Source: Apoderus coryli
Taxonomy: Eukaryota > Arthropoda > Insecta > Coleoptera > Attelabidae
Direction of reading: 5' to 3'
DNA length: 64,000 nucleotides
Assembly: GCA_911728435.2 (NCBI GenBank)
Contig: OU452209.1
Coordinates: forward strand, 11,018,869 to 11,082,868
The position numbers and the translations under genes are program-made. The notes under the pieces were generated by a model. It was not told the DNA's origin. It searched no databases and saw only the letters and a list, made by a program, of their open reading frames with translations. The stretch's first letter is position 1, and each line of letters starts with the position of its first letter. This document shows positions 7,001-60,443 of the stretch, piece after piece.

Positions 7001-10000
7001 GTATGGAGAGTCTTTATATTGCAAAAAAGAGCATTCAGGTATATTTTTAGCATACCCTGGGAACCTGCAGAGAAGTTTCTATGATGGAACGTAATTCCTA
7101 CTGTACCGTGCGTCTCGTAAAACGAGGAAGAAATTAGATACTACTACCCCGTCCTCAACACGATTTTTATGCTGGAGGGTATTATTTTAATTGTCGAATT
7201 TTTATTATGAATTATAATTTTATAATTATTGTTTGTATTTGTTGATATTATCATCCTGTAGTAGCAGTTGAAGAGAGATTAAAAAATAATAATTTGATGT
7301 AACTTGTCAGTTGATATAAATCTGGTAAAATATCAAATTATAGACAAAAATAGATGATAAATTTTTACATGGTCCTCCGAAAACACCTGAACTAAACGTG
7401 GAATAGTTATTTACAGTCCAAGAACACCTCTGGAAGATTTAAATCCAGAAAATAGAAAATTCAAAAAATTTTGACAAGAACTGCCAAGAAAATGTCTTGC
7501 AATAATTCTTTAGCAGATATAAGACCGTTGCACGGATTTAATAATGATAATAATGCTGGGTCGGTTAAAGAGTCAAATGCAAGAAATGAACAAGGTAGTT
7601 CCAAAAGTATAAATTCAAAAACATCGAAGTCATCGAAAAGAATAATTGAAAAAAAGAAATTAATTCTAGAAGCAGAAAAAGCCAAAGCAGAACTATTGAA
7701 ACATGAATTGGAAGCAAAACGAAAAATTATTGAATTAGAAAGAGAAATTGCTGAAGCAGAATTAGACGAGGAATTTGAAAATGACGATAATGAACGTGGT
7801 AGTAAACTTAGTGACAGTAAAATAAGTTTGCATTCTTCAGAAAAATTAAATAATGTTAAAGACTGGATAAATAATAATGATTGTGCAATCAAAGACCAAC
7901 TTTCAAGTGTAGATCACGACAGTTTCGTTAATGATAGTGATAATTCTTTATCCAAATTATGTCATGTGATTGAAAAAGCAATAAAAAGTGCTCAAAATCC
8001 TGAATTATCAGAAAGAATTTTGAATAGACAAGTATTGGATAAAGAACTCCCAAATTTTGATGGTAAACCTGAGGCTTGGCCGTTGTTTATTTCGCAATAC
8101 AGAAGAAGAAGTGAAGTTTGTAAATATACTGATGATGAAAAAATGGCAAAGTTACAAAAATGTTTAAAAGGTGAAGCATTAAATTGTGTTAGAGGTATGA
8201 TGCTACACCCTAAAAATGTAGATTTAATTATAAGCACATTAGAAATGCGATTTGGGCGACCAGCTCTTATTATAGATTCGATTATAACTGATATCGAGAA
8301 TTTTCCAAATATTAAAGATAATGATTTCGACACATGCATTAAATATTCATGCAAAATCCAGAATTTAAATTCTACATTAGAACAATTAAATGCTAAAAGT
8401 TATATTGAAAATCCGATTTTATTAAAGAAAATAGTTGAGAAAATCCCTAGCAATTTAAAGATTCAATGGGGTCAAGTTGTTTATCAAAAAGAGCAACTGA
8501 AATGTCAAGTATCAATAACAGATTTTTCAGACTGGTTAAATTCTATTGCTCAAGCAGCTTGTTGTGTTAGTACGCCGAAATTTAATTATCAGACTCAAAA
8601 ATGTACAAATTACAGAAGAAGCGAAAATGTAATGAACGTTAGACAGTTAAAGTGCGTTTATTGTAAAGAAGATCATCATATTAAAAGCTGTCCTGTAATG
8701 AAAAAAGACCCTGTCGATGTCCGTTGGACAAAAATTGTAAAAATGAAAGCATGTTTTTGTTGCCTGGGATTAAATCACATGCAAAACAACTGCAAGTCGA
8801 AGAATAAATGCACATTTGATGGGTGCACAAAACGACATCATTATTTGTTACATAAAGAAGTTGAAAATATCCCTTCAACATCAACACAAAATACTTTGAC
8901 GAATGAACACTCAGTTGTTAATGAAGAATCAGTTTTAAATATTAACCGAAGTTCAAAAACTTTATTAAGAATTGCTCCTGTTCAGATATTTGGTCCGAAT
9001 GGAACATTTCATGAGTACGCATTATTCGACGAAGGTTCAACAATTACACTCATCGATAACGTGATAGCTAAAAAAGCTGGATTACATGGACCAACAGAAT
9101 CCTTTTGTATGCAATGGGCTAGCGATATTGTGAAAAATAATGATGATTCCGAACGAATAACTGTCAAAATTTCAGCGATAGAAGATGGTTCAAGAATTTA
9201 TTCCATGAAAAATGTAAGAACAATTCAAAATCTCTCATTACCTATGCAAACATTTTCGATAGATAACTTGGAAAATAATATTAATTTGCCTGTTCACGAA
9301 TTGAAGAATGTACGTCCAAATATACTAATTGGACAAGATAATGCAAATTTAATTGTACCAAGGGAAGTTTATGAAATTAATTTCAGTCAGCCTATTATCA
9401 CAAAATGTTTACTTGGGTGGACTGTTCATGGCAGAACCACAAACTCTGAAAATGTATGTCAAACATCGTTATTACATATGTGTAATTATGAAGAAAGTAT
9501 CGATAAATTAATAAAAGAATCATTTTCTACTGAAAAATTTGGTGTCCAAGTGACAAACAATAAAATAAACAGCGACGAAAGACGTGCTATTGAAATGCTT
9601 CAAAAGACAACAAGAAAAATTGCAGGAGAAAATAGATACGAAACAGGATTATTATGGAAATCTGATAATGTACTACTTCCTGAAAGGAAGATGGAAAAAG
9701 ATAGAAATTATCACGAGAAATATTGTGAAAAAATAAATGAATACTTAGAAAAAGGATATTTGAGAAAACTTAAATCTAATGAAATTAAAACAGAATCGAA
9801 GAAATTATGGTATTTACCTCATTTCGCAGTTTTTAATCCCAATAAACCCCATAAATTTAGAATAGTTTTTGATACAGCAGCAAAAAGTCATGGCGTTAGT
9901 TTGAATGACAATTTACTTCAAGGCCCTGATTATTTGACAAATTTGCCGGGCGTCTTAATGAGATTTAGAAGATGGAAATGGGCATTTTGTGGAGATATAC

Positions 10001-13000
10001 GTGAAATGTTTCATCAAGTAAAAATTATTGAAGAAGACAGATGTGCGCAAAGAATTTTGTGGCGAGATGGAGATAAAAGCAAAGAAATAGAAGAATATGA
10101 AATGTTAGTAATGACATTTGGAGCGACATGTTCTCCGTGTTCTGCTCAATTTGTAAAAAACCTTAATGCTAAAGAATCGCCGAATTTCCCTCATTTAGTT
10201 GAAGATGTTGAGAAAAATTTTTATGTTGACGATTATTTGGATTGTTGTCAAACTGAACAAGAGGCAAATTTAAAAGTAGATGAAGTTAAACGGCTTCATC
10301 GAGAGGGGGGATTCGAAGTTGTAAGTTGGATTTCTAATTCAAAACTAATTACGAATAATGTATCTGATGTTCCTTTGGAAAAAGATTTGAATAAATGTGA
10401 AGCAAATAGAATATTAGGCGTTCTATGGAATGTTACAAACGACTGTTTTGTATTTCGACTAAAATTTCACAAAGTACAAGACGACATAGTAGCAGGTCAG
10501 AAAGTACCAACAAAAAGAGAAGTTCTTAAGCTTGTGATGTCAATTTTTGATCCGCTTGGTTTTCTAACTAATTTAGTTATACGTGGACGAATTATTTTAC
10601 AACAAATTTGTAGAACTGGAATTACATGGGACGAAATTATATCTGATCGAATTTTTCAAAATTGGTTAATTTGGTTAAAGGATCTAAAACACATTGAGGA
10701 TTTAAAAATACCTAGATGTTATTTTTACTCATTGGGAAGTACTAGGTTTATAGATTTACATATTTTTTGTGATGCAAGCGAAGAAGCTTTTGCATGCGCA
10801 GCGTATCTACGAATAGTTTTAGAAGATCAAATTGAAGTTTGCCTTATTTCTTCTAAAGCAAGAGTATGTCCTCTAAAACCACTATCTATACCGAGGCTAG
10901 AATTGCAGGCTGCAGTAATGGGTAGTAGACTTCTAACTACTATCAGAAAAGAATCGGGAATTAATATCAATAATTCCTATTTATGGTCAGATTCGAAAAC
11001 AGTATTGCATTGGATTAACGGGGATGGAAGAAATTATAAACAATTTGTTTCTCATCGAGTTGGTGAAATACAGGAACTAACAAAACTCGACCAATGGAAA
11101 TACGTTCCAGGTGATCAGAATGTCGCTGATTTATGTACGAGATTTGCAAATTCAATTAATTTATGTAATAATGAACAATGGTTTCATGGACCTAAGTTCT
11201 TAAAATATTCACAAGAATTTTGGCCTAAGCAATTGGATATTTGCAAACTAAAAAATGACGATCAAGAAGAAATGAAACGAGATCCTTTATTTATGGGTTA
11301 CACTACAGAAAATTTTAATATAATTCTAAATATCAATCGATTTTCAAAATGGAGAAGATTTGTTAGAGCAACAGCGTGGGTTTTTAAATATTATTTTAAA
11401 TTACTTCATAAGGTACGAGGCCATGACATTGAATATTATCCAGAAATAACGTGCAATGAATATCACGATGCTGAATTATACTCTTTGAAAATTAGCCAGC
11501 AGGAAAGTTTTCCAGAAGAATATATACAATTAAAAAATAATAAAAACGTTGATAGAAATTCAAGAATATTCAAATTAATGCCAGTTTTAGATGAGAAGGG
11601 TATAATTCGTATGAACGGACGTTTAAGACAGAGTGATATGATACAAAACGACGTGAATATGCCAATCATTTTAGATCCAAAAAACAGATTGACAAAATTA
11701 TTAATTTTATATCATCATGAACAAAATTGTCATGTTGGCGTAGAGTCTGTGTTGAATAATTTAAGACAGAAGTTTTGGATTTTGAAAGGCAGAGCAGCAG
11801 TTAAAGATGGTTTTAAATCATGCCAAATTTGTAAAATTAGAAAAGTGACACCTGTGCCACCTCAAATGGGACAACTTCCACTAAGTAGGATTACTCCTAA
11901 TATGCCACCATTTACTTTCTGTGGTTTAGATCTTTTCGGTCCCATGACAATAACTATTGGACGAAGAAAAGAAAAACGATGGGGAGCACTATTTACTTGT
12001 ATGGCGATTCGAGCAGTACATTTGGAAATTGTTCATTCGCTTACAACTGACAGCACAATCATGGCTATATGTAGGATGATGGCAAGAAGAGGTCAAATTA
12101 AATGTCTTTATTCAGACAATGGAACAAATTTTCGAGGTGCATCAGAAGAACTAAAATCATTTTGGAAAAATATAGATAACAAAAATATGGGAACAAAACT
12201 TTCAGAACACATGATAGAATGGCATTTTATACCACCTGGAGCCCCACACATGGGAGGTTGTTGGGAGCGATTAATAGAGTCAGTGAAGAAAATTTTACAG
12301 AATGTTTTATCAGCAGAAAATCCTAGAGAAGAAGTACTACAGACTGTTTTCGCAGAAGCTGAAAATGTAGTGAATAATAGACCATTGACGTATGTTTCAA
12401 TAGATCCATCTGATGAAGAATGCTTAACACCTAATCATTTGTTGTTAGGAAATAAACGTGATTCTTTACCAATAAAATTTGAGAACGTAAATCCTAGAAA
12501 GTTGTGGAAGAAGACTCAACAAATTGTCGACAGTTTTTGGACCAGGTGGGTTAAAGAATATTTACCCACTTTAACAAAAAGAAGTAAATGGATCGACACT
12601 AATTCATCCATTCAAGTAAATGACGTTGTTGTGGTTATAGACCCGACATTTCCAAGACATAAATGGCCATTAGGTAGAATAACGGCTGTTTATCCAGGAA
12701 AAGATGGGATTGTTAGAGTAATAGAAGTTCGAACAGCCTCTGGTATTTATCGCCGTCCTATCACCAAAGTTTGCAAATTAGATGTAACAGTTGATGATGG
12801 TGAAAACTGAAACAGTTTGCACGATGGGGAGAATGTCGAATTTTTATTATGAATTATAATTTTATAATTATTGTTTGTATTTGTTGATATTATCATCCTG
12901 TAGTAGCAGTTGAAGAGAGAAGAAAAAATAATAATTTGATGTAACTTGTCAGTTGATATAAATCTGATAAAATATCAAATTATAGACAAAAATAGATGAT

Positions 13001-16000
13001 AAATTTTTTACATTAATAATACGACAAAATATAACGCCGTCGGTCGTCGCTTTGCGACAATTCCTAAAATACTAAGTAGATAAGTTCATACCTTTATTGA
13101 TTGCTTTTCCAAAACCTTAAACGATAATTGCACATTGCACTTGTAGACAGGCGGAGTATAGAACAAATCCTTAATTAACGAGATGATATTATCCAAAACA
13201 GCTGGTGCCAATTTCACTTTCTTCTCATCATCGCTACTTAATTGCGTCTTGCTTGACAAAGTCTTCTCCAATGAACGTTTACTTCCTTGTACCCCGCGTT
13301 GGAAATACTGTAAGCGTAGTCGAAAATCTTTCAATACGTCAGGGTTTGTGGTCAAAAAGTCCGGACATTGTCGTGCTAGTCGATGGAATGAATACAATAA
13401 ACATTCAACTGATGTGAAATCCAAATTGGGCATGTCGGCTATGTCAGCGTCTTCCGGAGGTGCAGGCATATAATTCTATAAATAAATTATTATGCCATTG
13501 CATTATGCAGAAATACCAGCAAATATATTATAAAGTTTTATGTAACAAAAAACTTTTTTTAGAATTTTCACTTACCTTCAATACATTGAACACCTCTAAA
13601 ACTTCTTTTGATGGATCTTCCAATTTCCCACAATGAGTACTCAACTCGGCCAATTGTTTTAATAACTGATACTGTAAAATTTCTCCATTTGGCAGTTTTT
13701 CGATTACTTTCCATTGAGGCAGAATCTGGTCGCAGTAATATTTGACGAATTTTGTTGATTCAAGGCTAGCCTAAATAAGAAATACAAAGATTTGAATACA
13801 AGCAAAAAAAATGTATTTCAAAGAGTTGATTTAGCTACAAGCTCTTATTTCGATCAACACATTATTGTAGTCACACGCAACTACATCGTAGAAACCGAAA
13901 GAAGTTTCTCCATGTGAAACTACTTTTACTACTTGACCAAAACACTTATTTCAATCTCAACGCGTATTTCGTTAACACTGTTAGCATCCTCGAGGATATA
14001 GGACACATGTGAATCCTGCATCTAATACCTTTGGATTCAGGAAGAAAACCGTCGGACGCTTTGCCACGCAAACATGATTTTGAAATCCCATTTGAAGTGG
14101 TCATTGGAGACCATCACAAAATGGCTAAATGGGGAACCACGATTCCGAGAAAACATATCCGTCTGGTATACGGACGGTTCAAAAGGAATAGAACACAGGC
14201 ATGGGAGTATACGGGCCTAATTGCAGGCTCTCTGAATCTCTCGGGATAAGTCCCACTATATTCCAAGCAGAGATCAACGCTATTAATCGTTGTGCTCAAG
14301 AATGCCTGCAGAGAGGCATCCCGGAACGGCAGATCAATATTATGTCAGACAGTCAAGCTACGTTAAAAGCACTGAGGTCTTATACCTTCACGTCAAAGCT
14401 AGCATGGGAATGCAAACATACCCTAAAGCAATTGGCAGCTCAGGGGAAAACATTATTCTGACATGGGTGCCAGGACATGAAGGTATAGAGGAGAACGAAG
14501 CGGCGGACCAACTTGCAAAAGAGGGCGCAAACGCTCCGTTCTGCGGCCCGGAACCCATCTTTGGCCTTCCAAAAAGCCATATGACGGAAGAACGTCGGAG
14601 ATGGGAAAAGGGACAACTGAAGTCCTACTGGAGAAACACTCTAGGCCCAAGACAATCAAAAAGGTTGATCAAACCTTCAGAGGCCAACGCAGGGAAGCTT
14701 ATCCAACTGGAGAGAAGCGACCTAAGGCGAATTACAGGCCTTTTTACGGGACACCACCCAGTGAAGTACCATCTCAAAAAGATGGGCCTAACCGAGAACG
14801 AGACTTGTCGGTTTTGCGAAGACGCAACAGAGACAACAGGACACGTGCTCAGTGAATGCATGGCACTTTTCTGCAAAAGGCTAAAACACCTTAGAGGGGT
14901 GACCCTAACACCCGACGAGGCAAGGAATTTAGCCCCCAGAGAAATCATCAACTTCATGAAATGTGTGGGACAGCTGGGCAATTCATAGATTAGAGTCATT
15001 CACAAAAGATCTTCTGCAGGTCGAAGTGAGGGGAGGACAAACCGCCTAAACGACTCCGATAAAACAATCTACAATCCTCGAGGATTAAAAGTTTTGGTTT
15101 TGGATTGTTTTAAAATCGTGCTGTATATCCCTGGAAGAACCCTGAATACCATAGAATTTTCTTATTATTAGGGAAGAGTGATATTTAATGCAGTTAGATT
15201 TTGCTGGTCTAAAGGCCAAAAATGAGTTATACCATAGTAGTTACAAGACTTTTTTATCTGTCAAATTTAATATGATTTATTAAAAATGTCAAAGAGGGCC
15301 ATTGTTTATTAAAATATTGAAGAATTTATTTGAAAAAGTCGCATGCTTTTGCATTTTCTGTACAGGTTTAAAATTAATTTTTTGTCAAATTTTCACAAAA
15401 TTTACAGGGTGATATTTGCTTGAACCACATTTGAAGAACAATAAAGACATTTCGTTATTTGTGAAACTGATTTTTTCGGTGACTCGCGTAAATTTATGCG
15501 CGAATTGAACAGGATATTTGGTTCCAATGACGTGCTGTAGATTTGTGGTGCGCTTGCCTTGGAATTCTCAACTGTAATTTTAATGTAATACAGTACACTT
15601 ACGCTAGTGTGAACACACGCTTGTGTAAACCTTCCAGTAGTATGAACAGCCTTATGAAATATATTATATATTCTGTAGTGTGAACTTTTGAGAGTAAGAA
15701 TATATTTTGACCCCGCATTGCTGTTGGATGCTGTCGTATGTGTGTTGCCTATTCCGGGATTTAGTCTATTGTGAAATATGTAATAAACAAGTGGGAACCG
15801 CTAAGGTAGCATCAAGAGCGCGTACAAAGGTCTGTAATACAGTTCGGTGTTTGTTCTGGTTAATCAGTTTTATGAAAATGGTGAAAACCCAACATTTTTT
15901 AACTCTCTATGAGAAGTCAAAAATTCGAGAAGATTACAAGGTATGAGCATAACAAATTTATCTAAGAGATACGGAATTGCTAAGTCAACCGTTTGCTTGA

Positions 16001-19000: not shown

Positions 19001-22000
19001 TTTGGTAAGAACATTGGAAATATTACGTAATTTTCGGTAATATTGCTGAACAACTTAGAAAAAGCTGGTTTGACAATATGCAAAGAAGCTTTAACAAATT
19101 AAACAATAATTGCCTCAATTATATGGCTCTAAAAGGTCAATAAAACACAAAATAAACCGAAATCTGAAACTATATAGTTTTATGCATATTTTATAATAAA
19201 AAAAACAAGTTAAGTATGCATGTTATGTTTATTAAAAATAACAACATAATATATTATTTTGGTGTGCAGTAGTAAACATAAATATTATATGAAAACAAAA
19301 TTTATAAATAAATATTAACTCTTGATTAATAATTAAAAAAAAGAAGGTAACTTATATTTTTATCACAACATATCACAAACTGAAAAATATCACACAATTC
19401 TTAGATAGGCTAAAGAATACATATCATAAAAGAGTTATGATTACGTTTACGTTCGTTGTTCAAACTGGACTGGCATAATATATCTATGAAAAAAAGATGA
19501 AACACTGAAAAATGCACAACCCTTATCGATGTCGTTATTATCTATAATACTTATTTTACCACTAAGAGCACTGATAAATAAAGGAAAAACCGATCGTTTT
19601 ATTGTAGGTACACCTGCATAATAGATAATATTATATTCAAACAGAATAATGTAGAATTTTATACACAATTTTTTACAGCGTAAGAACTAAGCAACAGCTA
19701 TATCACTAGACGTGTTGCAGCATGTTGAAACAAGTAGTAAGACCGTTAGGTACCAACTTTAACGTAATATTGAAGCGAATATTACCGGGAATATTACCCC
19801 GAAAATTACCGAAATTTTTCGGGAATATTGCAGTAACAATGGTAACGTTACCGGATGGTAGAGGTAATATTACGTAATATAACCGGAAATTCTGATGGTA
19901 ATATTCGCACCGTGCATCACTATTAATGAACACACAGGCTTTGAGGGATTATGTTGAGAAAATTCCACCAAATCATTTTCTCAGTGGTTGCAAAAAGTTA
20001 CGAATACGCAATATGTACTTAACAATATTCACAAGTTTGAATTGTATACATCTAACAGACTTACCTGAATCATTTTCTTGCTCTTCTCTAGCAATAAATC
20101 CTCCAATTCAGAGCTCAACTTTTCGTGGGTCTTAATCAATTTCTTGAATAGAAACACAATAACTTTCTCGTGCCACTGCTCATCAGCTGAGTCATTAATT
20201 GCAGAGAACAATCCACGAATGGTATGGCAGGCATCCTGTCTGAATATTTGGGTCAAACAACTACATGCTGTTGTAAACACTTCATCAAGTTGGAGTAGCT
20301 GAGTTAGAACGCTTGCAACAGTTAGGACATTATCTTTGACATCTTGACACATTAGTGGTAGGAATTTCATAGCGCAGATACAAATCTGGAACAAATTATA
20401 ATAGACCGTTCAAAGTAACGAGGAAATTAAATTCTTAATATTTCAAATTTATCAAACAATATGCAAACATTACTACAGTATGCCCATTGTTGTAACACCC
20501 AAGATTTTTCTGTACTTTTCTAGAATCCTGAGAAGATATATATGTGAAGGCTGTGCCAGTTTTTGGAATTAGAATTAAATGGCCTATCTGTTAATTACAT
20601 CAAAATGCCTACCCAGATATTTCTCCAAAGATAGCCCACAATTTGATTCCAGCAAGGGAAAATGTGACGAAACAATAAATTAGAAATTGGTTCCTTGAAA
20701 TCAAAGAATATTTAAAACCGAAAGATCTTCTTGAAGTGGCTAATGCCTCAAAAGAGTTTTTAATGCTGAGGAAAGTCCATTTTATTTAAACCCTAAAGGT
20801 AACAAAGTCCTTGCACGCAAAGTTGACAAAAACATGTACTCAGTTGGCGGGGATGAAAATGGAAAATCTTACTGTCCATGTGACAGCAAATGCCGAAGGT
20901 GGAATTGCACCACCCATGGTTGTGTTCCCTTACATTAGGGTACCAAGTCATATATCAGCCAGCATACCTCCTTCCTGGGCAATAGGTAATTCAGAAAATA
21001 GTTGGATGTGTTTTTGTCTCATGGCTTGATAAGGAACAAATTGACAGGCCTATAATATTTTATGTTGACGGCCACGTGCCTCATTTCACGTTCCACTTAT
21101 CAAATTCATGCACTCAGAATGGAATAGAATTAATAGCCCTATTTCCTAACTCTACTCAGCTTCTTCAGCCTATGGACGTAGCTGTCTTCAGGCCATTGTA
21201 AAATGCATGGAAAAATGAAGCGCAAAATTGGAGATCTGAAAATGGGGGACTAAAATTACTAAAAAAAACACTTTGGACAAATTTTTGATAAGGCTCTAGA
21301 AACCATTAACAAAACCACAGTGCCACATGGATTTCGTGCTTAAGAGCTTTGCCCACTTGAAGTAGAAAACGTTAAATTTGAGAACATAGGTCCAACACGC
21401 ACAACTACTACAAATTTGAACAATGAAGCAAAAATCAACACAGAACGATTTGTAAACGAACTAGAAGCTCATATTCCGGTGAACACATTAAAAATTTTGA
21501 GGCCGGCTTTTTAGAAAAACACAAAATTTAATATTTGGAGAAATGAAAAGATAAAATTGTCAGAAAATACAGAAAAGACAGGGAAATACACAATATAGTG
21601 AAGGCACCACTCCAGCACGATACTGAAAAATTCATGAACTTACACAACGTCCAAAACAAAAATGAAAAAACACCACTTAAAGAAGCTTTTACACAACAGG
21701 AATATATCTACCCTTTAAGAAGACCCTGTTCTGGCCAAGGCATCCACGTCAACAAATAAGAGAAAGGGTAAGGAAAAAATGCCTTCTGATATAACATCAC
21801 AAATATGGGGAGATTATACAAGTAAGAATGAAAATGAGAAGAAAAGAAAACTGGAGGAAAAAGGAAACCGAAAATTGAAAGGGCAAGAAAGTGAAGGGAC
21901 TACCTTACTTTCTGTGATTTTGAAGAAAACGAAGAGTTCTGACATAGATGCTGTTGTCAGCTTATCTATTGGAGATTATGTTTTAGTAAAATTTGTTGGG

Positions 22001-35989: not shown

Positions 35990-38069
35990 CAGGGTGGTCC
36001 AACGAAAAGTTTGCACCTAGCTTTTCTCTTTTTTTTGTAGTCGAATGCGAAAATGCTCGGACACGTCGATTTTGCTTTTGAGGGGGACACATTTTAAACA
36101 TATTTTTCGATCTGCGCCTTTAACCCCCTAGCGGGGGTGAGTAACAACCCTAAAATTTTAAATGGAAAGAGGGGTCTAATGACATATCATTTGAAAGGAC
36201 ACAAAATTGTCTTTCTAATGATACCCTATTTGTCGAATTTTACTAAAACAGTTAATACGAAAACGACTTTAAAGACATTAAGCCGATAATTTTGGTATTA
36301 ATGAGAAATACAAATAAGTTTTAATTATTACGACTGAAAACAACTACAATCATTTCTAAATTATTTACTTTGAAGAAAAACGGGATTTCAAAAACACTAT
36401 CTTATTTATCAGAACTAAATTCCTCACTAATCGTTTGCGTTTTTTGTTGAAATAAAAACTGCAGATACGTGTAGGAAAAGAATTTACACCGTTTATTTTA
36501 GTCTTTTCATTGATTCAGTTTGGTTGCTTCTCAAGTTATTTTACTTTTACCGTACAAAATGATTTATTCCATTCTAGAACGAGTTGAAATTGTTAAACTT
36601 TATTTTCAAAATAATAGTAGTGCTAGACTTACGGCTCGCTTATTTAATGAGAGACATCCCGATAAAAATGTGAATGATGTGTACGTTGGCAAGTTAGTTA
36701 AAAAGTTTGTAGATACCGGATCTGTCTGTAATGTAAAACACCAGCCGCAGAAACCGATCAGAAATGAAGCTGTGGAAGTCGCTGTTTTAGGGCATGTTGA
36801 AATGGATCATAGTCAAAGTACCCGTCAACTAGCTGAAGCCTCAGGTGTCTCCCGTTCGTCCATAATACGAATTTTAAAAGCGTACAAATTTCATCCGTAC
36901 AAAATCAAATTAGTACAGGAACTAAATGAGGATGATCCTGATAGAAGGCTGCAATTTTGTGAAGCAATGAGCCAGCGTTTAATTGAAGATCCGCAATTAT
37001 TATTTAACATTTGTTTTTCCGACGAATGCACATTTTATTTGAATGGAGCTGTAAATAGGCACAATTGCCGTTACTGGGATGACAGTAAACCACATTTATT
37101 CCGTAAGGTTCATACCCAGTATCCTCAAAAAATAAACGTCTGGTGTGGCATATTAGGAAATCATATTATAGGACCACTTTTTATTCCTGGAAATTTAACT
37201 GGTGAAGTGTACCTAAACATGCTTGAAGACACAATTGATCCTTTAATAACACAAATAATAGAAGATGACCAAAATCATACTGCTGATCGGCTTTATTTCC
37301 AGCAAGATGGAGCACCTCCGCACTATGTGGCTCCTGTAAGACAGTTCTTAGATGACCGGTTCCCTGGACGGTGGATTGGAAGGAGGGGCCCAATTGAATG
37401 GCCTGCCAGGTCACCGGATTTATCGCCTTTAGACTTTTTTCTTTGGGGGCACTTAAAAAATAAATGTTTTGCCACGAAGCCCGAGTCCATAGAAGATCTT
37501 CGCCAACGCATTACAGAAGAGTGCAGAAACATAACACCTGATATGCTACAAAATGTTAGAAATAGATTTGAACAAAATCTGTATTATTGTATGGAATCAA
37601 ATGGGTCACATTTTCAACATTTGTTAATGTAACGTTTTAATAAATCAATTTAACAGCTTGTTTACTTTTTTTACAAAGCAATGTTAAAACTAACAAACAT
37701 TGGAATGTACTAACGATTGCAGGTGTTTTCACTCGCAATAATTAAAACTTATTTGTATTTCTCATTAATAACAAAATTATCGGCTTAATGTCTTTAAAGT
37801 CGTTTTCGTATTAACTGTTTTAGTAAAATTCGACAAATAGGGTATCATTAGAAAGACAATTTTGTGTCCTTTCAAATGATATGTCATTAGACCCCTCTTT
37901 CCATTTAAAATTTTAGGGTTGTTACTCACCCCCGCTAGGGGGTTAAAGGCGCAGATCGAAAAATATGTTTAAAATGTGTAAAAGCAAAATCGACGTGTCC
38001 GAGCATTTTCGCATTCGACTACAAAAAAAAGAGAAAAGCTAGGTGCAAACTTTTCGTTGGACCACCCTG
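35990..38069 (+). mobile_element. Intact DD41D mariner/Tc1-type transposon, 2080 bp
   Basis: Ends CAGGGTGGTCC and complement, flanked by TA (35988-35989 and 38070-38071). The terminal inverted repeats are very long, about 350 bp (roughly 35990-36350 and 37730-38069), nearly identical except for a short deletion in the right arm near 37979 and scattered changes near the inner ends. One intact transposase frame lies between them. Long near-identical arms and an open frame indicate recent mobility. Confidence 0.93.
36559..37632 (+). CDS. mariner-type transposase, 357 aa, DD41D
   Basis: Start chosen at ATG 36559 (MIYSILERVEIVKLYF). The N-terminal ~110 residues form two helix-turn-helix motifs (LTARLFNERHPDKNVNDVYV; STRQLAEASGVSRSSIIRIL). 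The catalytic domain has D155 (CFSDECTFYLNG), D250 (YFQQDGAPPHY) and D292 (SPDLSPLDFFLWG). There are 41 residues between the second and third aspartates, the DD41D signature of the rosa-like group within Tc1/mariner. Cut-and-paste DNA transposition at TA sites is the known role. The length is normal for the superfamily and there is no internal stop. A tail remnant of a related element is at 56140-56190. Confidence 0.95.
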   Translation: MIYSILERVEIVKLYFQNNSSARLTARLFNERHPDKNVNDVYVGKLVKKFVDTGSVCNVKHQPQKPIRNEAVEVAVLGHVEMDHSQSTRQLAEASGVSRSSIIRILKAYKFHPYKIKLVQELNEDDPDRRLQFCEAMSQRLIEDPQLLFNICFSDECTFYLNGAVNRHNCRYWDDSKPHLFRKVHTQYPQKINVWCGILGNHIIGPLFIPGNLTGEVYLNMLEDTIDPLITQIIEDDQNHTADRLYFQQDGAPPHYVAPVRQFLDDRFPGRWIGRRGPIEWPARSPDLSPLDFFLWGHLKNKCFATKPESIEDLRQRITEECRNITPDMLQNVRNRFEQNLYYCMESNGSHFQHLLM

Positions 38070-49173: not shown

Positions 49174-49337
49174 GAAGAAACTGAGCGAATACCCTAATTA
49201 TAATTATCGATCTTTGGAAACTTGAAGAGGTATTTTATTAGAGTGCGGATTTAATATAAGAAAATTAAGAATTGCTTGTTACATAAAGCAACAAGACTTT
49301 AAGTTATGTTGGAAATTTATTTCACACCACCATGCTT

Positions 49338-49381
49338 CCACCAGACGGCCGTTTCGTCGATCCACGACTCATCAGTGGTGA
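49338..49381 (-). ncRNA. Hammerhead ribozyme (type I), 336-bp family, inverted copy
   Basis: Exact reverse complement of the ribozyme at 49642-49685, located in the inverted partial unit. Core, stems and GTC site are intact. Confidence 0.9.
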
Positions 49382-49641
49382 TCGGCAGGCAGCGTGACCT
49401 AAATTTCCAACATTTACAAAGAACTTATACTAGCACGAGAATTGATCGGGCGCATCTAGTGTTGGCAATAGGATATAATGGAGTTGTTACTTCTTGTCCG
49501 GCCATCGTAGTGAACTGTGTTTCACCCGGCATATTGCCTGTTCACGCTAGGTGTCGCCACAAACATCTCTCTCTCAATCAATTCTCGTGCTAGTATAAGC
49601 TCTTTGTAAATGTTGGAAATTTAGGTCACGCTGCCTGCCGA

Positions 49642-49685
49642 TCACCACTGATGAGTCGTGGATCGACGAAACGGCCGTCTGGTGG
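49642..49685 (+). ncRNA. Hammerhead ribozyme (type I), 336-bp family, sense copy
   Basis: Core CTGATGA (49648-49654), stem II GTCG-TGGAT-CGAC, GAAA (49668-49671), very short stem III within ACGGCCGT, cleavage triplet GTC with the cut expected after C49679. Stem I is six pairs: TCACCA with TGGTGG (one U-G). All invariant core positions are present. Known chemistry: site-specific self-cleavage of RNA. Confidence 0.9.
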
Positions 49686-50600
49686 AAGCATGGTGGTGTG
49701 AAATAAATTTCCAACATAACTTAAAGTCTTGTTGCTTTATGTAACAAGCAATTCTTAAATAAAGCCTCCCTGCTAGGGGATTCGGGCGCATCTAGTGTTG
49801 GCAATAGGATATAATGGAGTTGTTACTTCTTGTCCGGCCATCGTAGTGAACTGTGTTTCACCCGGCATATTGCCTGTTCACGCTAGGTGTCGCCACAAAC
49901 ATCTCTCTCTCAATAAGAAAATTAATAACCGTTTATTAATAATGGAATCACGCCGTATTGTGGACATGCGCGAGGAATATTTGCGTAAAATAAAAGAGTA
50001 CCGCGAGTCAAAGAGAACGATAATATATCTTGACGAGACGTGGTTTGATATGCATGATACTGTGAAGTATGGTTGGGTAGACATGACTCAAAATTGTACT
50101 CTAAATGCTCCATGTTCAAGGGGAAAACGGGTTATAATTCTACATGCGGAAAGTGAAAATGGGTTTGTACTCAACGCAGTGCTCTTGTCAGCCAAAAACA
50201 TGCTTCTGCGGACTACCACGATGACATGACCGCAAATTTGTTTGAAAAATGGTTTGCTGAACAGCTAGTACCTAATATTCCCCCAAGTTCAGTTATCGTT
50301 ATGGATAATCGTCTTATCATTGAATGTTAAATAAAATACCTAATAATAATACAGAAAAGGAGGATATATTAAAGTTTATGATACAATTTTAAAAAAGAAT
50401 ACGTTATACACCATATCTGCGAAACACACGGCCATAGTATATTTACTTAAGAGGATTTCATGTCCGTAAATATAACAAATGAAAATAATTTCGTGGCAAA
50501 GCGGACTAAAATGTTGGCTTTACCTACACAAGGAATTTTGTTTAATTTAGCAGGGCCCCAGTCTAATTCGATAGAAACCAGACCGAGGCATGGGTCGACA

Positions 50601-50648
50601 GGTACTGACGAATTCGTTTCGCTCTTGTTATGAGCTCGTCAGAGCACC
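50601..50648 (-). ncRNA. Hammerhead ribozyme (type I), 525-bp unit, copy 1
   Basis: Minus strand: stem I GGTGCT (50648-50643) pairs with AGTACC (50606-50601; one G-U); core CTGACGA (50642-50636); stem II GCTC-ATAACAA-GAGC; GAAA (50620-50617); stem III A-CG-AATT-CG-T; cleavage triplet GTC with the cut after position 50607. GACA (50660-50657) and TGTC (50600-50597) extend stem I beyond an 8-nt bulge, as expected for loop-loop contacts in natural hammerheads. Confidence 0.93.
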
Positions 50649-51125
50649 ATAGTCGCTGTCCATCACAAATATCGGCCTGCATTTAAGCACAATAGGATAC
50701 ACAACAGTAGACACATGCAAACATATATCATCTACATGTACATAGTAATGCATATCCCATACCATGCAGAGGCCGAACAAACTCAATGTATAGGTAAAAC
50801 CAGTCGTATAAATAGAAATAAATATAAATAAAAATAGTATGAACACAAAACGCTAGCAGGAGACCATTTTATCCTTCTGCCAGCATCTCCCAAATATTTG
50901 GGTTTCAGCAATGCTCGGACGGTGGTCTCCAAGCGTTCTGCCGTCGATGTTTAATGCCAAATAATGAAAAATTAAGAGGATTTCATGTCCGTAAATATAA
51001 CAAATGAAAATAATTTCGTGGCAAAGCGGACTAAAATGTTGGCTTTACCTACACAAGGAATTTTGTTTAATTTAGCAGGGCCCCAGTCTAATTCGATAGA
51101 AACCAGACCGAGGCATGGGTCGACA

Positions 51126-51173
51126 GGTACTGACGAATTCGTTTCGCTCTTGTTATGAGCTCGTCAGAGCACC
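51126..51173 (-). ncRNA. Hammerhead ribozyme, 525-bp unit, copy 2
   Basis: Identical to copy 1, shifted by 525 bp. Confidence 0.93.
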
Positions 51174-51650
51174 ATAGTCGCTGTCCATCACAAATATCGG
51201 CCTGCATTTAAGCACAATAGGATACACAACAGTAGACACATGCAAACATATATCATCTACATGTACATAGTAATGCATATCCCATACCATGCAGAGGCCG
51301 AACAAACTCAATGTATAGGTAAAACCAGTCGTATAAATAGAAATAAATATAAATAAAAATAGTATGAACACAAAACGCTAGCAGGAGACCATTTTATCCT
51401 TCTGCCAGCATCTCCCAAATATTTGGGTTTCAGCAATGCTCGGACGGTGGTCTCCAAGCGTTCTGCCGTCGATGTTTAATGCCAAATAATGAAAAATTAA
51501 GAGGATTTCATGTCCGTAAATATAACAAATGAAAATAATTTCGTGGCAAAGCGGACTAAAATGTTGGCTTTACCTACACAAGGAATTTTGTTTAATTTAG
51601 CAGGGCCCCAGTCTAATTCGATAGAAACCAGACCGAGGCATGGGTCGACA

Positions 51651-51698
51651 GGTACTGACGAATTCGTTTCGCTCTTGTTATGAGCTCGTCAGAGCACC
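51651..51698 (-). ncRNA. Hammerhead ribozyme, 525-bp unit, copy 3
   Basis: Identical to copy 1. Confidence 0.93.
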
Positions 51699-52175
51699 AT
51701 AGTCGCTGTCCATCACAAATATCGGCCTGCATTTAAGCACAATAGGATACACAACAGTAGACACATGCAAACATATATCATCTACATGTACATAGTAATG
51801 CATATCCCATACCATGCAGAGGCCGAACAAACTCAATGTATAGGTAAAACCAGTCGTATAAATAGAAATAAATATAAATAAAAATAGTATGAACACAAAA
51901 CGCTAGCAGGAGACCATTTTATCCTTCTGCCAGCATCTCCCAAATATTTGGGTTTCAGCAATGCTCGGACGGTGGTCTCCAAGCGTTCTGCCGTCGATGT
52001 TTAATGCCAAATAATGAAAAATTAAGAGGATTTCATGTCCGTAAATATAACAAATGAAAATAATTTCGTGGCAAAGCGGACTAAAATGTTGGCTTTACCT
52101 ACACAAGGAATTTTGTTTAATTTAGCAGGGCCCCAGTCTAATTCGATAGAAACCAGACCGAGGCATGGGTCGACA

Positions 52176-52223
52176 GGTACTGACGAATTCGTTTCGCTCT
52201 TGTTATGAGCTCGTCAGAGCACC
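52176..52223 (-). ncRNA. Hammerhead ribozyme, 525-bp unit, copy 4
   Basis: Identical to copy 1. Confidence 0.93.
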
Positions 52224-52700
52224 ATAGTCGCTGTCCATCACAAATATCGGCCTGCATTTAAGCACAATAGGATACACAACAGTAGACACATGCAAACATA
52301 TATCATCTACATGTACATAGTAATGCATATCCCATACCATGCAGAGGCCGAACAAACTCAATGTATAGGTAAAACCAGTCGTATAAATAGAAATAAATAT
52401 AAATAAAAATAGTATGAACACAAAACGCTAGCAGGAGACCATTTTATCCTTCTGCCAGCATCTCCCAAATATTTGGGTTTCAGCAATGCTCGGACGGTGG
52501 TCTCCAAGCGTTCTGCCGTCGATGTTTAATGCCAAATAATGAAAAATTAAGAGGATTTCATGTCCGTAAATATAACAAATGAAAATAATTTCGTGGCAAA
52601 GCGGACTAAAATGTTGGCTTTACCTACACAAGGAATTTTGTTTAATTTAGCAGGGCCCCAGTCTAATTCGATAGAAACCAGACCGAGGCATGGGTCGACA

Positions 52701-52748
52701 GGTACTGACGAATTCGTTTCGCTCTTGTTATGAGCTCGTCAGAGCACC
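52701..52748 (-). ncRNA. Hammerhead ribozyme, 525-bp unit, copy 5
   Basis: Identical to copy 1. Confidence 0.93.
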
Positions 52749-53225
52749 ATAGTCGCTGTCCATCACAAATATCGGCCTGCATTTAAGCACAATAGGATAC
52801 ACAACAGTAGACACATGCAAACATATATCATCTACATGTACATAGTAATGCATATCCCATACCATGCAGAGGCCGAACAAACTCAATGTATAGGTAAAAC
52901 CAGTCGTATAAATAGAAATAAATATAAATAAAAATAGTATGAACACAAAACGCTAGCAGGAGACCATTTTATCCTTCTGCCAGCATCTCCCAAATATTTG
53001 GGTTTCAGCAATGCTCGGACGGTGGTCTCCAAGCGTTCTGCCGTCGATGTTTAATGCCAAATAATGAAAAATTAAGAGGATTTCATGTCCGTAAATATAA
53101 CAAATGAAAATAATTTCGTGGCAAAGCGGACTAAAATGTTGGCTTTACCTACACAAGGAATTTTGTTTAATTTAGCAGGGCCCCAGTCTAATTCGATAGA
53201 AACCAGACCGAGGCATGGGTCGACA

Positions 53226-53273
53226 GGTACTGACGAATTCGTTTCGCTCTTGTTATGAGCTCGTCAGAGCACC
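53226..53273 (-). ncRNA. Hammerhead ribozyme, 525-bp unit, copy 6
   Basis: Identical to copy 1. Confidence 0.93.
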
Positions 53274-53750
53274 ATAGTCGCTGTCCATCACAAATATCGG
53301 CCTGCATTTAAGCACAATAGGATACACAACAGTAGACACATGCAAACATATATCATCTACATGTACATAGTAATGCATATCCCATACCATGCAGAGGCCG
53401 AACAAACTCAATGTATAGGTAAAACCAGTCGTATAAATAGAAATAAATATAAATAAAAATAGTATGAACACAAAACGCTAGCAGGAGACCATTTTATCCT
53501 TCTGCCAGCATCTCCCAAATATTTGGGTTTCAGCAATGCTCGGACGGTGGTCTCCAAGCGTTCTGCCGTCGATGTTTAATGCCAAATAATGAAAAATTAA
53601 GAGGATTTCATGTCCGTAAATATAACAAATGAAAATAATTTCGTGGCAAAGCGGACTAAAATGTTGGCTTTACCTACACAAGGAATTTTGTTTAATTTAG
53701 CAGGGCCCCAGTCTAATTCGATAGAAACCAGACCGAGGCATGGGTCGACA

Positions 53751-53798
53751 GGTACTGACGAATTCGTTTCGCTCTTGTTATGAGCTCGTCAGAGCACC
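53751..53798 (-). ncRNA. Hammerhead ribozyme, 525-bp unit, copy 7
   Basis: Identical to copy 1. Confidence 0.93.
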
Positions 53799-54275
53799 AT
53801 AGTCGCTGTCCATCACAAATATCGGCCTGCATTTAAGCACAATAGGATACACAACAGTAGACACATGCAAACATATATCATCTACATGTACATAGTAATG
53901 CATATCCCATACCATGCAGAGGCCGAACAAACTCAATGTATAGGTAAAACCAGTCGTATAAATAGAAATAAATATAAATAAAAATAGTATGAACACAAAA
54001 CGCTAGCAGGAGACCATTTTATCCTTCTGCCAGCATCTCCCAAATATTTGGGTTTCAGCAATGCTCGGACGGTGGTCTCCAAGCGTTCTGCCGTCGATGT
54101 TTAATGCCAAATAATGAAAAATTAAGAGGATTTCATGTCCGTAAATATAACAAATGAAAATAATTTCGTGGCAAAGCGGACTAAAATGTTGGCTTTACCT
54201 ACACAAGGAATTTTGTTTAATTTAGCAGGGCCCCAGTCTAATTCGATAGAAACCAGACCGAGGCATGGGTCGACA

Positions 54276-54323
54276 GGTACTGACGAATTCGTTTCGCTCT
54301 TGTTATGAGCTCGTCAGAGCACC
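54276..54323 (-). ncRNA. Hammerhead ribozyme, 525-bp unit, copy 8
   Basis: Identical to copy 1. Confidence 0.93.
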
Positions 54324-54800
54324 ATAGTCGCTGTCCATCACAAATATCGGCCTGCATTTAAGCACAATAGGATACACAACAGTAGACACATGCAAACATA
54401 TATCATCTACATGTACATAGTAATGCATATCCCATACCATGCAGAGGCCGAACAAACTCAATGTATAGGTAAAACCAGTCGTATAAATAGAAATAAATAT
54501 AAATAAAAATAGTATGAACACAAAACGCTAGCAGGAGACCATTTTATCCTTCTGCCAGCATCTCCCAAATATTTGGGTTTCAGCAATGCTCGGACGGTGG
54601 TCTCCAAGCGTTCTGCCGTCGATGTTTAATGCCAAATAATGAAAAATTAAGAGGATTTCATGTCCGTAAATATAACAAATGAAAATAATTTCGTGGCAAA
54701 GCGGACTAAAATGTTGGCTTTACCTACACAAGGAATTTTGTTTAATTTAGCAGGGCCCCAGTCTAATTCGATAGAAACCAGACCGAGGCATGGGTCGACA

Positions 54801-54848
54801 GGTACTGACGAATTCGTTTCGCTCTTGTTATGAGCTCGTCAGAGCACC
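54801..54848 (-). ncRNA. Hammerhead ribozyme, 525-bp unit, copy 9
   Basis: Identical to copy 1; last copy before the inversion point at about 54949. Confidence 0.93.
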
Positions 54849-55336
54849 ATAGTCGCTGTCCATCACAAATATCGGCCTGCATTTAAGCACAATAGGATAC
54901 ACAACAGTAGACACATGCAAACATATATCATCTACATGTACATAGTAATTTTAGTCCGCTTTGCCACGAAATTATTTTCATTTGTTATATTTACGGACAT
55001 GAAATCCTCTTAATTTTTCATTATTTGGCATTAAACATCGACGGCAGAACGCTTGGAGACCACCGTCCGAGCATTGCTGAAACCCAAATATTTGGGAGAT
55101 GCTGGCAGAAGGATAAAATGGTCTCCTGCTAGCGTTTTGTGTTCATACTATTTTTATTTATATTTATTTCTATTTATACGACTGGTTTTACCTATACATT
55201 GAGTTTGTTCGGCCTCTGCATGGTATGGGATATGCATTACTATGTACATGTAGATGATATATGTTTGCATGTGTCTACTGTTGTGTATCCTATTGTGCTT
55301 AAATGCAGGCCGATATTTGTGATGGACAGCGACTAT

Positions 55337-55384
55337 GGTGCTCTGACGAGCTCATAACAAGAGCGAAACGAATTCGTCAGTACC
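55337..55384 (+). ncRNA. Hammerhead ribozyme, 525-bp unit, inverted copy
   Basis: Same ribozyme on the plus strand within the inverted terminal unit: GGTGCT, CTGACGA (55343-55349), stem II, GAAA, GTC, AGTACC. Confidence 0.93.
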
Positions 55385-55740
55385 TGTCGACCCATGCCTC
55401 GGTCTGGTTTCTATCGAATTAGACTGGGGCCCTGCTAAATTAAACAAAATTCCTTGTGTAGGTAAAGCCAACATTTTAGTCCGCTTTGCCACGAAATTAT
55501 TTTCATAGTATATTTACGTTTATCTCCATATTACTGCATATTTAATCAGATAGAATTGGTTTGGGGCAGTAAAAGAACAGTGGAGACAATGCAATCAGAA
55601 TCCGACTTCAAGCGCTGTAATCCTAGAGAATATAAGAACTGTTATATCTGATCTAGACAAAACTGATATATGGAAAAAAATCGGTGGATCACATTTTTCC
55701 GGTCATAGACCCTGTTATCATTCAGCATAAAGGATTTTTA

Positions 55741-58654: not shown

Positions 58655-60443
58655 GTAATTTCTTTATTTATTTATCTACACCTCAAGCCAACCTTATGAT
58701 TGGATAGGGTCGTCATTACACACAATACATTATTACAATTACAATTTAACAAATAAAGGATAAACAAAACCCGAAATACATACAAAGAACACAGAAGAAC
58801 ATTTAAATGAAAGTACTGTCAGCTTAAGAATCAAAAAACTCTGACAAACTGTAATAAAAGTTTCCTTTTAAAAATATTTTCAGTTTTCGAGCTTTTTATT
58901 TCATCAGGTATTTTATTGAAAACGTAAGAACTTGCACATATAGGCGACTTCCTGAACATTGTAAGGTTATATTTATCGATGTAGATGTTATCTCTATTTT
59001 TTGTTGAGTAGTTGTGAGTAGGTCTTTTTAACTCAGTTTTCATTCGATACCCATGAAGCCCTATTTTATATATATACACAGATGATAGAGTTAATATTTT
59101 ATGTTTTCTAAACGTTTCTCTACAAGATTCCTAACGCCCCAAACCAAAAACGACCCGCAGAATTCTCTTCTCCAGAACAAACACACGCTGTATATCCAAC
59201 GCGATAACACCATACGACAATCTAGAGTATGCAAGTGCATAATAAACACATAAAAGAGCCCCTGTATTTAAAGAATTCCTAAGGACCGACACAGCAAAGC
59301 ACGCCCGGCTAAGCTCCGAACACAGTTGACCTATATGTTGAGACCAACTCAGGTTTTCATCCAACATTATACCCAGGAATTTTGATTTTTCAGTGATTTC
59401 TATAGGATGTGAGTTTAGGTGTAAATTTAAGTCGAACGTAATGTCTCTGATTTTCGTTCTAAACATAATGCAAGATGTTTTTTCCGCATTTATAATTAAT
59501 TTGTTTTTGAAGCACCATTGACTAAAGGTTTTTAATATATTATTAGTTTTGCTTTCTAATTCCTGCATGCTTAAAGCCAATATTGCTATTGACGTATCAT
59601 CCGCAAACATGCAAACCTTTCCAGTATTTATCTTCGGTAGTTCATTCACATATAGCAAAAATATCAGGGGTCCGAGGACACTTCCCTGAGGGGTACCTAT
59701 GTCAATGTTATATTTTCTAGAAAAAGAGTTACCAATTCTAACAATTAATTGTCTGTCACTTAGGTAAGAAATAATCCAGTCGTTTATGTTACCCCTTATA
59801 CCGAGATTTGACAATTTTCGACCCACAAAAGAAATATCTATGGTATCGAATGCACTTGTGATGTCAAATAGTATTCCCAACACATACCGATTTGCATCCA
59901 AGCAGTTATACACATACTGTATGAAGTCAGCCACCGCTGTTTCTGTGGAGTGACGTGCCCTAAACCATTCTTATTTAGGAAACTTGTAATACGGTCAGAT
60001 ACGACTTTCTCGATAATTTTAGAAAGCACACTCAACAATGATATAGGTCTGTAGTTTTTTATATCATGTATATCATTTTTCTTATATATGGGTATAATCA
60101 ATGAAGTTTTAAGTCTTGCGGGAAAGACGCCAGTGCTAAGAGATTTATTTACAATAAGAGTTAAATTTTGCGCAAATTCATCAGGGAAAGCCTTCACAAT
60201 TCTCACAGACAATTCGTCTATACCCACCGACTTTTTGTTTGGTAAATTTGCAATAACTGTTTCAATCTCACTACAAGTCACCGGAAAAAAATACATACTC
60301 TTATCCGTATTGGGACAAACCGTGCAGTCGTCTGACACCACCCCAAACTGTGATTGTATCTTTTTATGTACGTTGGTGGAATAATACTCACCAACCACAG
60401 AGGATAAAGCATTAGGATCTGATATACTTAGGGGACGGATCAA
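58655..60443 (-). pseudogene. Jockey-like LINE, 5'-truncated, one main frameshift
   Basis: Upstream frame (60443-59838) holds KKSVGIDELSVRIVKAFPDE and the DIKNYRPISLLSVLSKIIEK box. After a frame change at about 59940 the next frame (59934-59131) holds FDITSAFDTIDISFV, GTPQGSVLGPLIFLLYVNEL, the catalytic MFADDTSIAI, and LGIMLDENLSWSQHI. A C-terminal piece (59079-58831) and a 3' untranslated end with AATAAATAAA to about 58655 follow. Endonuclease and ORF1 are absent. This is the best-preserved LINE in the window; only a frameshift and a C-terminal break are obvious. Confidence 0.88.

Follow-up and report, generated by a model that had tools for sequence, protein, structure and literature searches.

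The 64,000-nt stretch of the Apoderus coryli genome analyzed here (assembly GCA_911728435.2, contig OU452209.1, positions 11,018,869 to 11,082,868; hereafter, the window) contains an array of 525-bp units with a type I hammerhead ribozyme motif in each unit. We interpret this array, with a probability of roughly 0.8, as one insertion of a non-autonomous metazoan retrozyme that was reverse-transcribed from both strands of its target by machinery of the Penelope type. Retrozymes as such are already known, and the new part is the architecture of the insertion and its match to the insertions of Penelope-like elements. Our literature search, judged by titles and opening parts of abstracts, without supplements and most subscription papers, found no report of head-to-head retrozyme arrays with paired start sites. 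The mobiliser of animal retrozymes and the integration mode of Penelope-like elements are open questions on which these insertions bear, as nearly unmutated copies constitute a record of the reaction, namely, of the start of complementary DNA (cDNA) synthesis, of the length of its run, and of the joining of two cDNAs.

A preliminary description of the window, based on its letters only, had listed the array as identical 525-bp units with ten hammerheads. All eight complete units between the anchors are indeed 525 bp long and identical, and the direct run occupies 50447-54949: 4503 bp, or 8.577 copies of the unit, with the RNA-sense on the minus strand. What that description missed is the single-insertion nature of the block, the 14-bp duplications at its borders, and the transposase relic that served as its target. 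The direct run is followed by an inverted piece of 557 bp (54950-55506), the reverse complement of the 525-bp unit, which extends to 559 bp with a 2-nt overlap at the inner junction and overlaps the target-site duplication by 3 nt (CAT) at its other end. After removal of the block and of one CATAGTATATTTAC repeat, the DDE_3 protein of the window aligns across the join with LRLSPYYCIFNQIELVWG, and the empty site can be read. The 14-bp direct repeat together with the transposase relic readable across the join indicates that a single insertion, rather than a resident satellite, gave rise to the block. The units adjoin each other without a separate internal region, and the GC content of the majority unit is 39.4%. 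Unlike Penelope-like elements, which encode a reverse transcriptase and a GIY-YIG endonuclease, the 525-bp array contains no open reading frame (ORF) of at least 120 aa; therefore, the element can be at most a passenger, and is not itself a Penelope-like element.

The search for related copies covered the whole assembly of 428,062,225 bp in 129 contigs, the mitochondrial COI of which shares 99% identity with that of Apoderus jekelii and 93% with that of another member of Apoderinae. The exact 28-nt core of the hammerhead occurs in it 1,315 times (661 forward, 654 reverse; 0 for the pattern written backwards), and a DNA search with the window unit, in which the best 40 of 1,548 first-look candidates were scored, gave at least 172 matches; copies of the 525-nt family are dispersed over many contigs. 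Our detailed sample comprises 40 regions around the matches listed, the locus of the window included, and holds 41 insertions, as one region (L030) contains two. Two head-to-head arms are present in 38 of them, with the RNA-sense directions pointing outward every time. Thus, the plus-strand copy that the preliminary description had mentioned is real, but the picture drawn from it was incomplete: the two-armed form is the rule, and its ends look Penelope-like. The retrozyme concept invoked there is supported by the type I hammerhead of each unit, the non-coding multimers of exact unit length, the low GC content, the duplications, and the many dispersed copies. A second sample, not picked by the similarity of whole units, consisted of 100 exact cores, the first of the 1,315, and lay entirely on contig C1. 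These cores form 53 clusters, of which 15 are two-stranded (all 15 in the minus-then-plus order), 2 contain several cores on one strand, and 36 contain a single core.

The outer ends of the arms are not placed at random. With unit positions numbered from the first base past the expected cleavage site, one outer end falls at site A (positions 125-138) in 36 of the 38 two-armed insertions, and the other at site B (positions 156-165 in 34 insertions and 175-176 in 2). If each end picked A or B randomly, the probability that all 36 would be mixed is 3e-11. The median separation of A and B is 31 nt (range 25.5-46 in the 35 scored loci, with 25.5-36 in 33 of them and 45-46 in two). Target-site duplications of 12-14 bp also bound 36 of the 38 two-armed insertions, although these are not all the same 36 as those with A/B ends. 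Their lengths are 12 bp in 17 insertions, 13 bp in 11, and 14 bp in 8, while L030a, an old copy of 93% identity, has a duplication of 9 bp and one insertion has none; mispaired flanks had a common word of at least 9 letters in 1 of 494 control trials. These lengths occur in the proportions that a stagger of always 12 bp would give if chance matches, at an assumed rate of 0.3, lengthened some of the duplications. The context of the nick is alike on both sides, with T as the second base past it in 32 of 35 cases at B and in 27 of 35 at A. In the predicted fold of the circular RNA, regions A and B sit in two adjacent hairpins, with their bases largely free of pairing (mean probability of being unpaired 0.71 and 0.69 vs. 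0.39 overall). The duplications, the head-to-head arms, and the two fixed outer ends 31 nt apart can be read directly from the genomic DNA, and they argue strongly for target priming on two sides with two start sites. For the inverted junctions of Penelope-like elements, the accessible part of a 2013 study favours self-priming on an antisense template (PMC3846280); the presence of two duplications, together with a single fixed start on each side, speaks rather for priming on both strands of the target.

The inner ends of the arms are scattered. Their distribution along the unit does not depart from a uniform one (Kolmogorov-Smirnov p 0.57), and all 74 inner ends keep a distance of more than 3 nt from the cleavage site, which indicates that the arms do not stop at the RNA ends that the ribozyme would make. 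The microhomology between the arms has a mean of 1.97 nt, as compared to 0.70 nt expected, and none of 20,000 simulated means was as high. It reaches 3 nt or more in 13 of 37 inner junctions, and extra bases are present in 12 of 37. Arms longer than one unit account for 49 of 70 (35 loci), and no difference in length was found between the arms of the A side and those of the B side (p 0.36). Loci L016 and L030 have a common inner junction (365|14) with a microhomology of 6 nt, together with different duplications and swapped A and B sides.

Units of a given insertion tend to share their variants. In a comparison with the majority unit as the reference, which covered 75,973 bases, ten variants recur in at least two units, and nine of these fill every unit of both arms (seven loci, with three variants in the window). 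Further variants include 34 that occur in a single unit and five at sites covered once. In one locus, the unit length is 526 in all eight same-strand spacings of both arms, and in another one it is 515 in two spacings; the single spacing of 556 among those of 525 in a third locus represents an insertion private to one unit. One variant set per insertion, as observed in all informative loci but one, fits the repeated copying of one circle, and we consider it likely that the template was circular.

The ten complete hammerheads of the preliminary description, nine on the minus and one on the plus strand, are all in place, as the 42-nt core was located at each of the ten positions, and the structure can be drawn with a 6-bp stem I with an outer helix, a 4-bp stem II, and a 3-bp stem III. 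The window contains 12 matches to the pattern CTGANGAG..CGAAAC, as opposed to zero in 100 shuffled versions; a second hammerhead family accounts for two of these matches (49351 and 49648). Complete hammerhead cores are unchanged in 156 of 157 cases in the arms examined, and the 525-nt circle is predicted to fold strongly (z of -6.95 relative to 60 shuffled sequences). We assume from the motif that the ribozyme is active. Simple patterns revealed no A or B boxes of RNA polymerase III promoters and no TATA box. Outside the genome, blastn gave no matches among phages and plasmids, and the 28-nt core has none in IMG/VR contigs.

The same genome contains elements whose insertions have the same signature. 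At least 150 matches to the GIY-YIG domain are present in it, and among the best 150 of 1,260 first-look candidates, 18 pairs of matches no more than 6 kb apart were found, all 18 in the minus-then-plus, i.e., head-to-head, order. The ends of nine of these pairs, seven of one family and two of a second one, were inspected, and duplications were found in eight. In the first family, all seven pairs have duplications of 12-14 bp, and in six of them one end coincides with GTCAGTTT to within -3 to +2 bases while the opposite end is longer by 34-37 nt, whereas L071 has a different left end. In the second family, the ends of which are less surely placed, L072 has a 14-bp duplication and none was found at L073. 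Pfam models recognized GIY-YIG in ORFs of L070, L073, and L074 and found nothing in the 683-aa ORF of L072 even at E 5, though the genome search had scored GIY-YIG there. Motifs that we take to be reverse transcriptase-like were picked out in these ORFs by eye. The assignment of these elements as Penelope-like rests on GIY-YIG, on their architecture, and on these by-eye motifs, not on a reverse transcriptase model. The signature common to both kinds of insertions, as seen in the DNA, ties a ribozyme-bearing RNA to Penelope-type integration within one genome, and Penelope-type machinery is the best-supported candidate for the agent that inserted the retrozyme.

The course of events could be as follows. 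Hammerhead cleavage would release RNA of unit length, which would be closed into a 525-nt circle. A Penelope-like endonuclease-reverse transcriptase would cleave both strands of AT-rich DNA with a spacing of about 12 bp, and each exposed 3' end would prime reverse transcription from inside the retrozyme RNA, starting about 130 positions past the cleavage site on one strand and about 161 on the other. Both cDNAs would then be extended round the template, for as many as 8.6 rounds in one arm, and the joining of their 3' ends, often at short homologies, would give two head-to-head multimeric arms between short duplications. We lean slightly towards a more general proposition that Penelope-type integration is inherently two-sided: one ribonucleoprotein would make cuts of fixed stagger, cDNA synthesis would start once per strand at sites about 31-35 nt apart, and both cDNAs would roll round one circular RNA made by the ribozyme. 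If true, two-sided integration would explain the inverted copies and the tails of Penelope-like elements, and retrozymes would be their parasites. The fixed start sites and the spacing of cuts are directly testable with purified protein and circular RNA.

Metazoan retrozymes without long terminal repeats (LTRs) were defined by Cervera and de la Pena (2020; PMC7229834). In the parts of that paper accessible to us, Penelope-like elements are candidate drivers on the grounds of their co-occurrence with retrozymes, of type I hammerheads in both, and of a tandem arrangement of both; the accessible text of PMC7761336 restates this candidacy. In those parts of PMC7229834, retrozymes resemble the weevil family in having type I hammerheads, in forming tandem arrays, dimeric to many-copy, of small low-GC repeats, in duplications that exceed 4 bp when present (12-14 bp in the weevil), and in the proposed reverse transcription of circles. 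The weevil unit differs in size (525 nt vs. 170-400 nt), and the head-to-head arms with two fixed outer ends that characterize the weevil family have no mention in the same parts of the paper. According to the available text of PMC3846280, a typical Penelope insertion consists of direct and inverted pseudo-LTRs in the head-to-head order, with a 9-bp duplication in one example, and may carry a 31-bp 'tail' at one inverted end. The weevil insertions are similar in their head-to-head inverted copies, in their duplications (8-10 bp in the examples given there), and in the likeness of their end spacing to this optional 31-bp extension. Purified Penelope protein was found to cut and extend both strands in vitro and to start at two adjacent internal sites of the RNA (PMC11167929); the weevil insertions resemble this in the two adjacent internal starts that their outer ends suggest. 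W-elements of Schistosoma mansoni, in the passages of PMC8490949 devoted to them, are also repetitive, some with functional type I hammerheads and one with a putative duplication, and these passages contain no fixed two-ended architecture of the weevil kind.

The proposed insertion mechanism would remain unchanged if the template was not a circle but a linear transcript of several units, left uncleaved and derived from an older uniform array. We regard this variant as rather unlikely, though it is the alternative to be taken most seriously. Hammerhead cleavage was dispensable for insertion in vitro in the one Penelope element studied (PMC11167929), and a uniform source array would yield identical units. 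However, the separate variant sets of particular insertions, present in both arms, and the locus-specific unit lengths (526 in both arms, 515) would then need many uniform source arrays, and L009 is the sole mixed locus among the informative ones. A change of the agent, namely, to target-primed reverse transcription driven by a long interspersed nuclear element (LINE), appears improbable. In that case, one strand would be primed at the 3' end of the RNA and the other anywhere upstream via microhomology. Such twin priming, known as the source of 5' inversion of human L1, yields head-to-head arms, duplications, and junction microhomology, and fragments of LINE reverse transcriptase are present in the window. 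Yet the second start is not random, being separated from the first by about 31 nt (25.5-36 nt for 33 of the 35 loci scored), a poly(A) or a repeated 3' tail is not evident at the junctions inspected, and the duplication lengths agree with a constant 12-bp stagger. Moreover, the signature is common to Penelope-like elements of the same genome, the side that the comparison covered.

Young satellites typically consist of perfectly identical tandem units, and the pDo500 satellite of Dolichopoda cave crickets has a unit near 500 bp, as its name implies. That satellite, an insect tandem repeat with a hammerhead-like structure (PMC2808323), might suggest that the array is ordinary satellite DNA generated by unequal exchange or rolling-circle amplification of DNA, in which the ribozyme-like motif is incidental. 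pDo500 is described as a satellite, and the available text of the same paper lacks the word 'inverted', while the weevil copies are dispersed on many contigs as short arrays, nearly every two-armed copy has its own duplication, the outer ends are fixed, and the head-to-head order is consistent. The duplications and the empty site readable in the window largely refute this explanation, which we find very improbable. Inverted repeats are also a known type of chimera, and the arms could be thought of as an artefact of assembly or of fold-back reads. The chance of this is close to nil, as the arms are unequal in length, the inner junctions differ between loci, and 36 of the 38 two-armed copies lie between duplicated pieces of flanking DNA.

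Certain results weigh against the insertion of a retrozyme by Penelope-type machinery from a circular template. Five of the 41 insertions deviate from the pattern: L035, L045, and L047 show a single arm (3 of 41), L012 ends at 475 and 162 and has a duplication of 13 bp, and for L033, which ends at 408 and 131, no duplication was found. The 40 regions of the detailed sample are those nearest to the window unit, which biases it towards young copies, and in the sample of the first 100 cores the 36 single-core clusters are silent on the order of arms. The covariance-model search that the preliminary description had proposed as a check of the hammerhead did not reach its threshold: no Rfam model matched at the gathering level in the window, and the best one, Hammerhead_HH9, scored every one of the ten copies at 20.6 bits (E 0.16), below its threshold of 52. 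In nearest-neighbour folding, the hammerhead fold has -21.3 kcal/mol and a fold that pairs the core has -26.5 kcal/mol, i.e., 5.2 lower. As to the template, variant A95T of L009 is mixed (6 of 7 and 5 of 5 units), and six of the 34 private variants (in L010, L025, L026, L027, L031, and L046) fill the arm that covers the site once, so that a new mutation cannot be told there from an arm-specific template; uncleaved linear multimers from a uniform array could likewise yield identical units. As to the agent, one rotifer Penelope family mostly lacks inverted pseudo-LTRs, according to the accessible part of PMC3846280, and 114 of the 150 GIY-YIG matches have no neighbour within 6 kb among the matches listed. 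The retrozyme unit and 32 loci of the Penelope search have in common only an AT-rich match of 24-27 nt, in 4 of the 32 (unit positions 292-318, best E 3e-5). No recognition sequence shared with a Penelope-like element was found in these 32 loci, most pieces of which need not include element ends or start sites. The sole AT-rich match lies away from the start sites and thus does not account for a recognition of retrozyme RNA by the enzyme.

Coordinates of the retrozyme insertion, its hammerhead motifs (42-nt cores), and its target in the window
Feature	Position	Strand	Remarks
Target, left part of DDE transposase relic	50202..50438	+	tblastn, DDE_3 protein of the window vs. joined flanks
Target-site duplication, left copy (14 bp)	50433..50446	none	CATAGTATATTTAC
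Left arm, 8.58 exact 525-bp units	50447..54949	-	RNA 3' (outer) end maps to unit position 160 (start site B)
Type I hammerhead core, copy 1	50601..50642	-	Expected cleavage between 50607 and 50606
Hammerhead core, copy 2	51126..51167	-	
Hammerhead core, copy 3	51651..51692	-	
Hammerhead core, copy 4	52176..52217	-	
Hammerhead core, copy 5	52701..52742	-	
Hammerhead core, copy 6	53226..53267	-	
Hammerhead core, copy 7	53751..53792	-	
Hammerhead core, copy 8	54276..54317	-	
Hammerhead core, copy 9	54801..54842	-	
Right arm, inverted, 557-559 bp	54948..55506	+	Outer end maps to unit position 125-128 (start site A)
Hammerhead core, copy 10	55343..55384	+	In inverted arm
Target-site duplication, right copy (14 bp)	55504..55517	none	CATAGTATATTTAC
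Target, DDE transposase relic continued right of the insertion	55518..55567	+	LRLSPYYCIFNQIELVWG read across the join

The second hammerhead family, absent from the preliminary description, is represented in the window at 49256-49925 by head-to-head copies of a 336-bp unit between 13-bp repeats ATAAGAAAATTAA. Its hammerheads (49338-49381 on the minus strand and 49642-49685 on the plus strand) match Rfam Hammerhead_1 with 32.3 bits (E 3.8e-6; threshold 34). The genome contains 2,206 exact copies of its 25-nt core (control 0), and the first 100 of them form 68 clusters, 16 of which are two-stranded, all 16 in the minus-then-plus order. The outer ends in the window (49265 and 49914) correspond to unit positions 79 and 235 and are not about 31 nt apart; a piece of this family in L023 ends at position 80. 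In the same locus, a 525-nt-family insertion (1186-2605) lies within a copy of the second family, the flanking pieces of which overlap by 12 unit positions (37-48), and this overlap matches the 12-bp duplication of the inserted copy.

Other mobile elements are recognizable in the window. An uninterrupted ORF of 1779 aa (7471-12810) belongs to a Pao/BEL-type retrotransposon, with Peptidase_A17 and integrase zinc-binding domains and with RVT_1 under its cut-off. Another uninterrupted ORF, of 370 aa (36520-37632), encodes a Tc1/mariner-like transposase, the nearest database protein of which is 96% identical. A LINE-like reverse transcriptase extends across two overlapping ORFs on the minus strand (59131-60443). 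The host gene API5 is represented on the minus strand by two exon-like ORFs (13086-13469 and 20029-20394). In the assembly as a whole, 92 of 93 COX1 matches are on contigs C1-C25 and the remaining one is on the 21-kb contig C129; the spread over contigs C1-C25 suggests many mitochondrial insertions in the nuclear genome.

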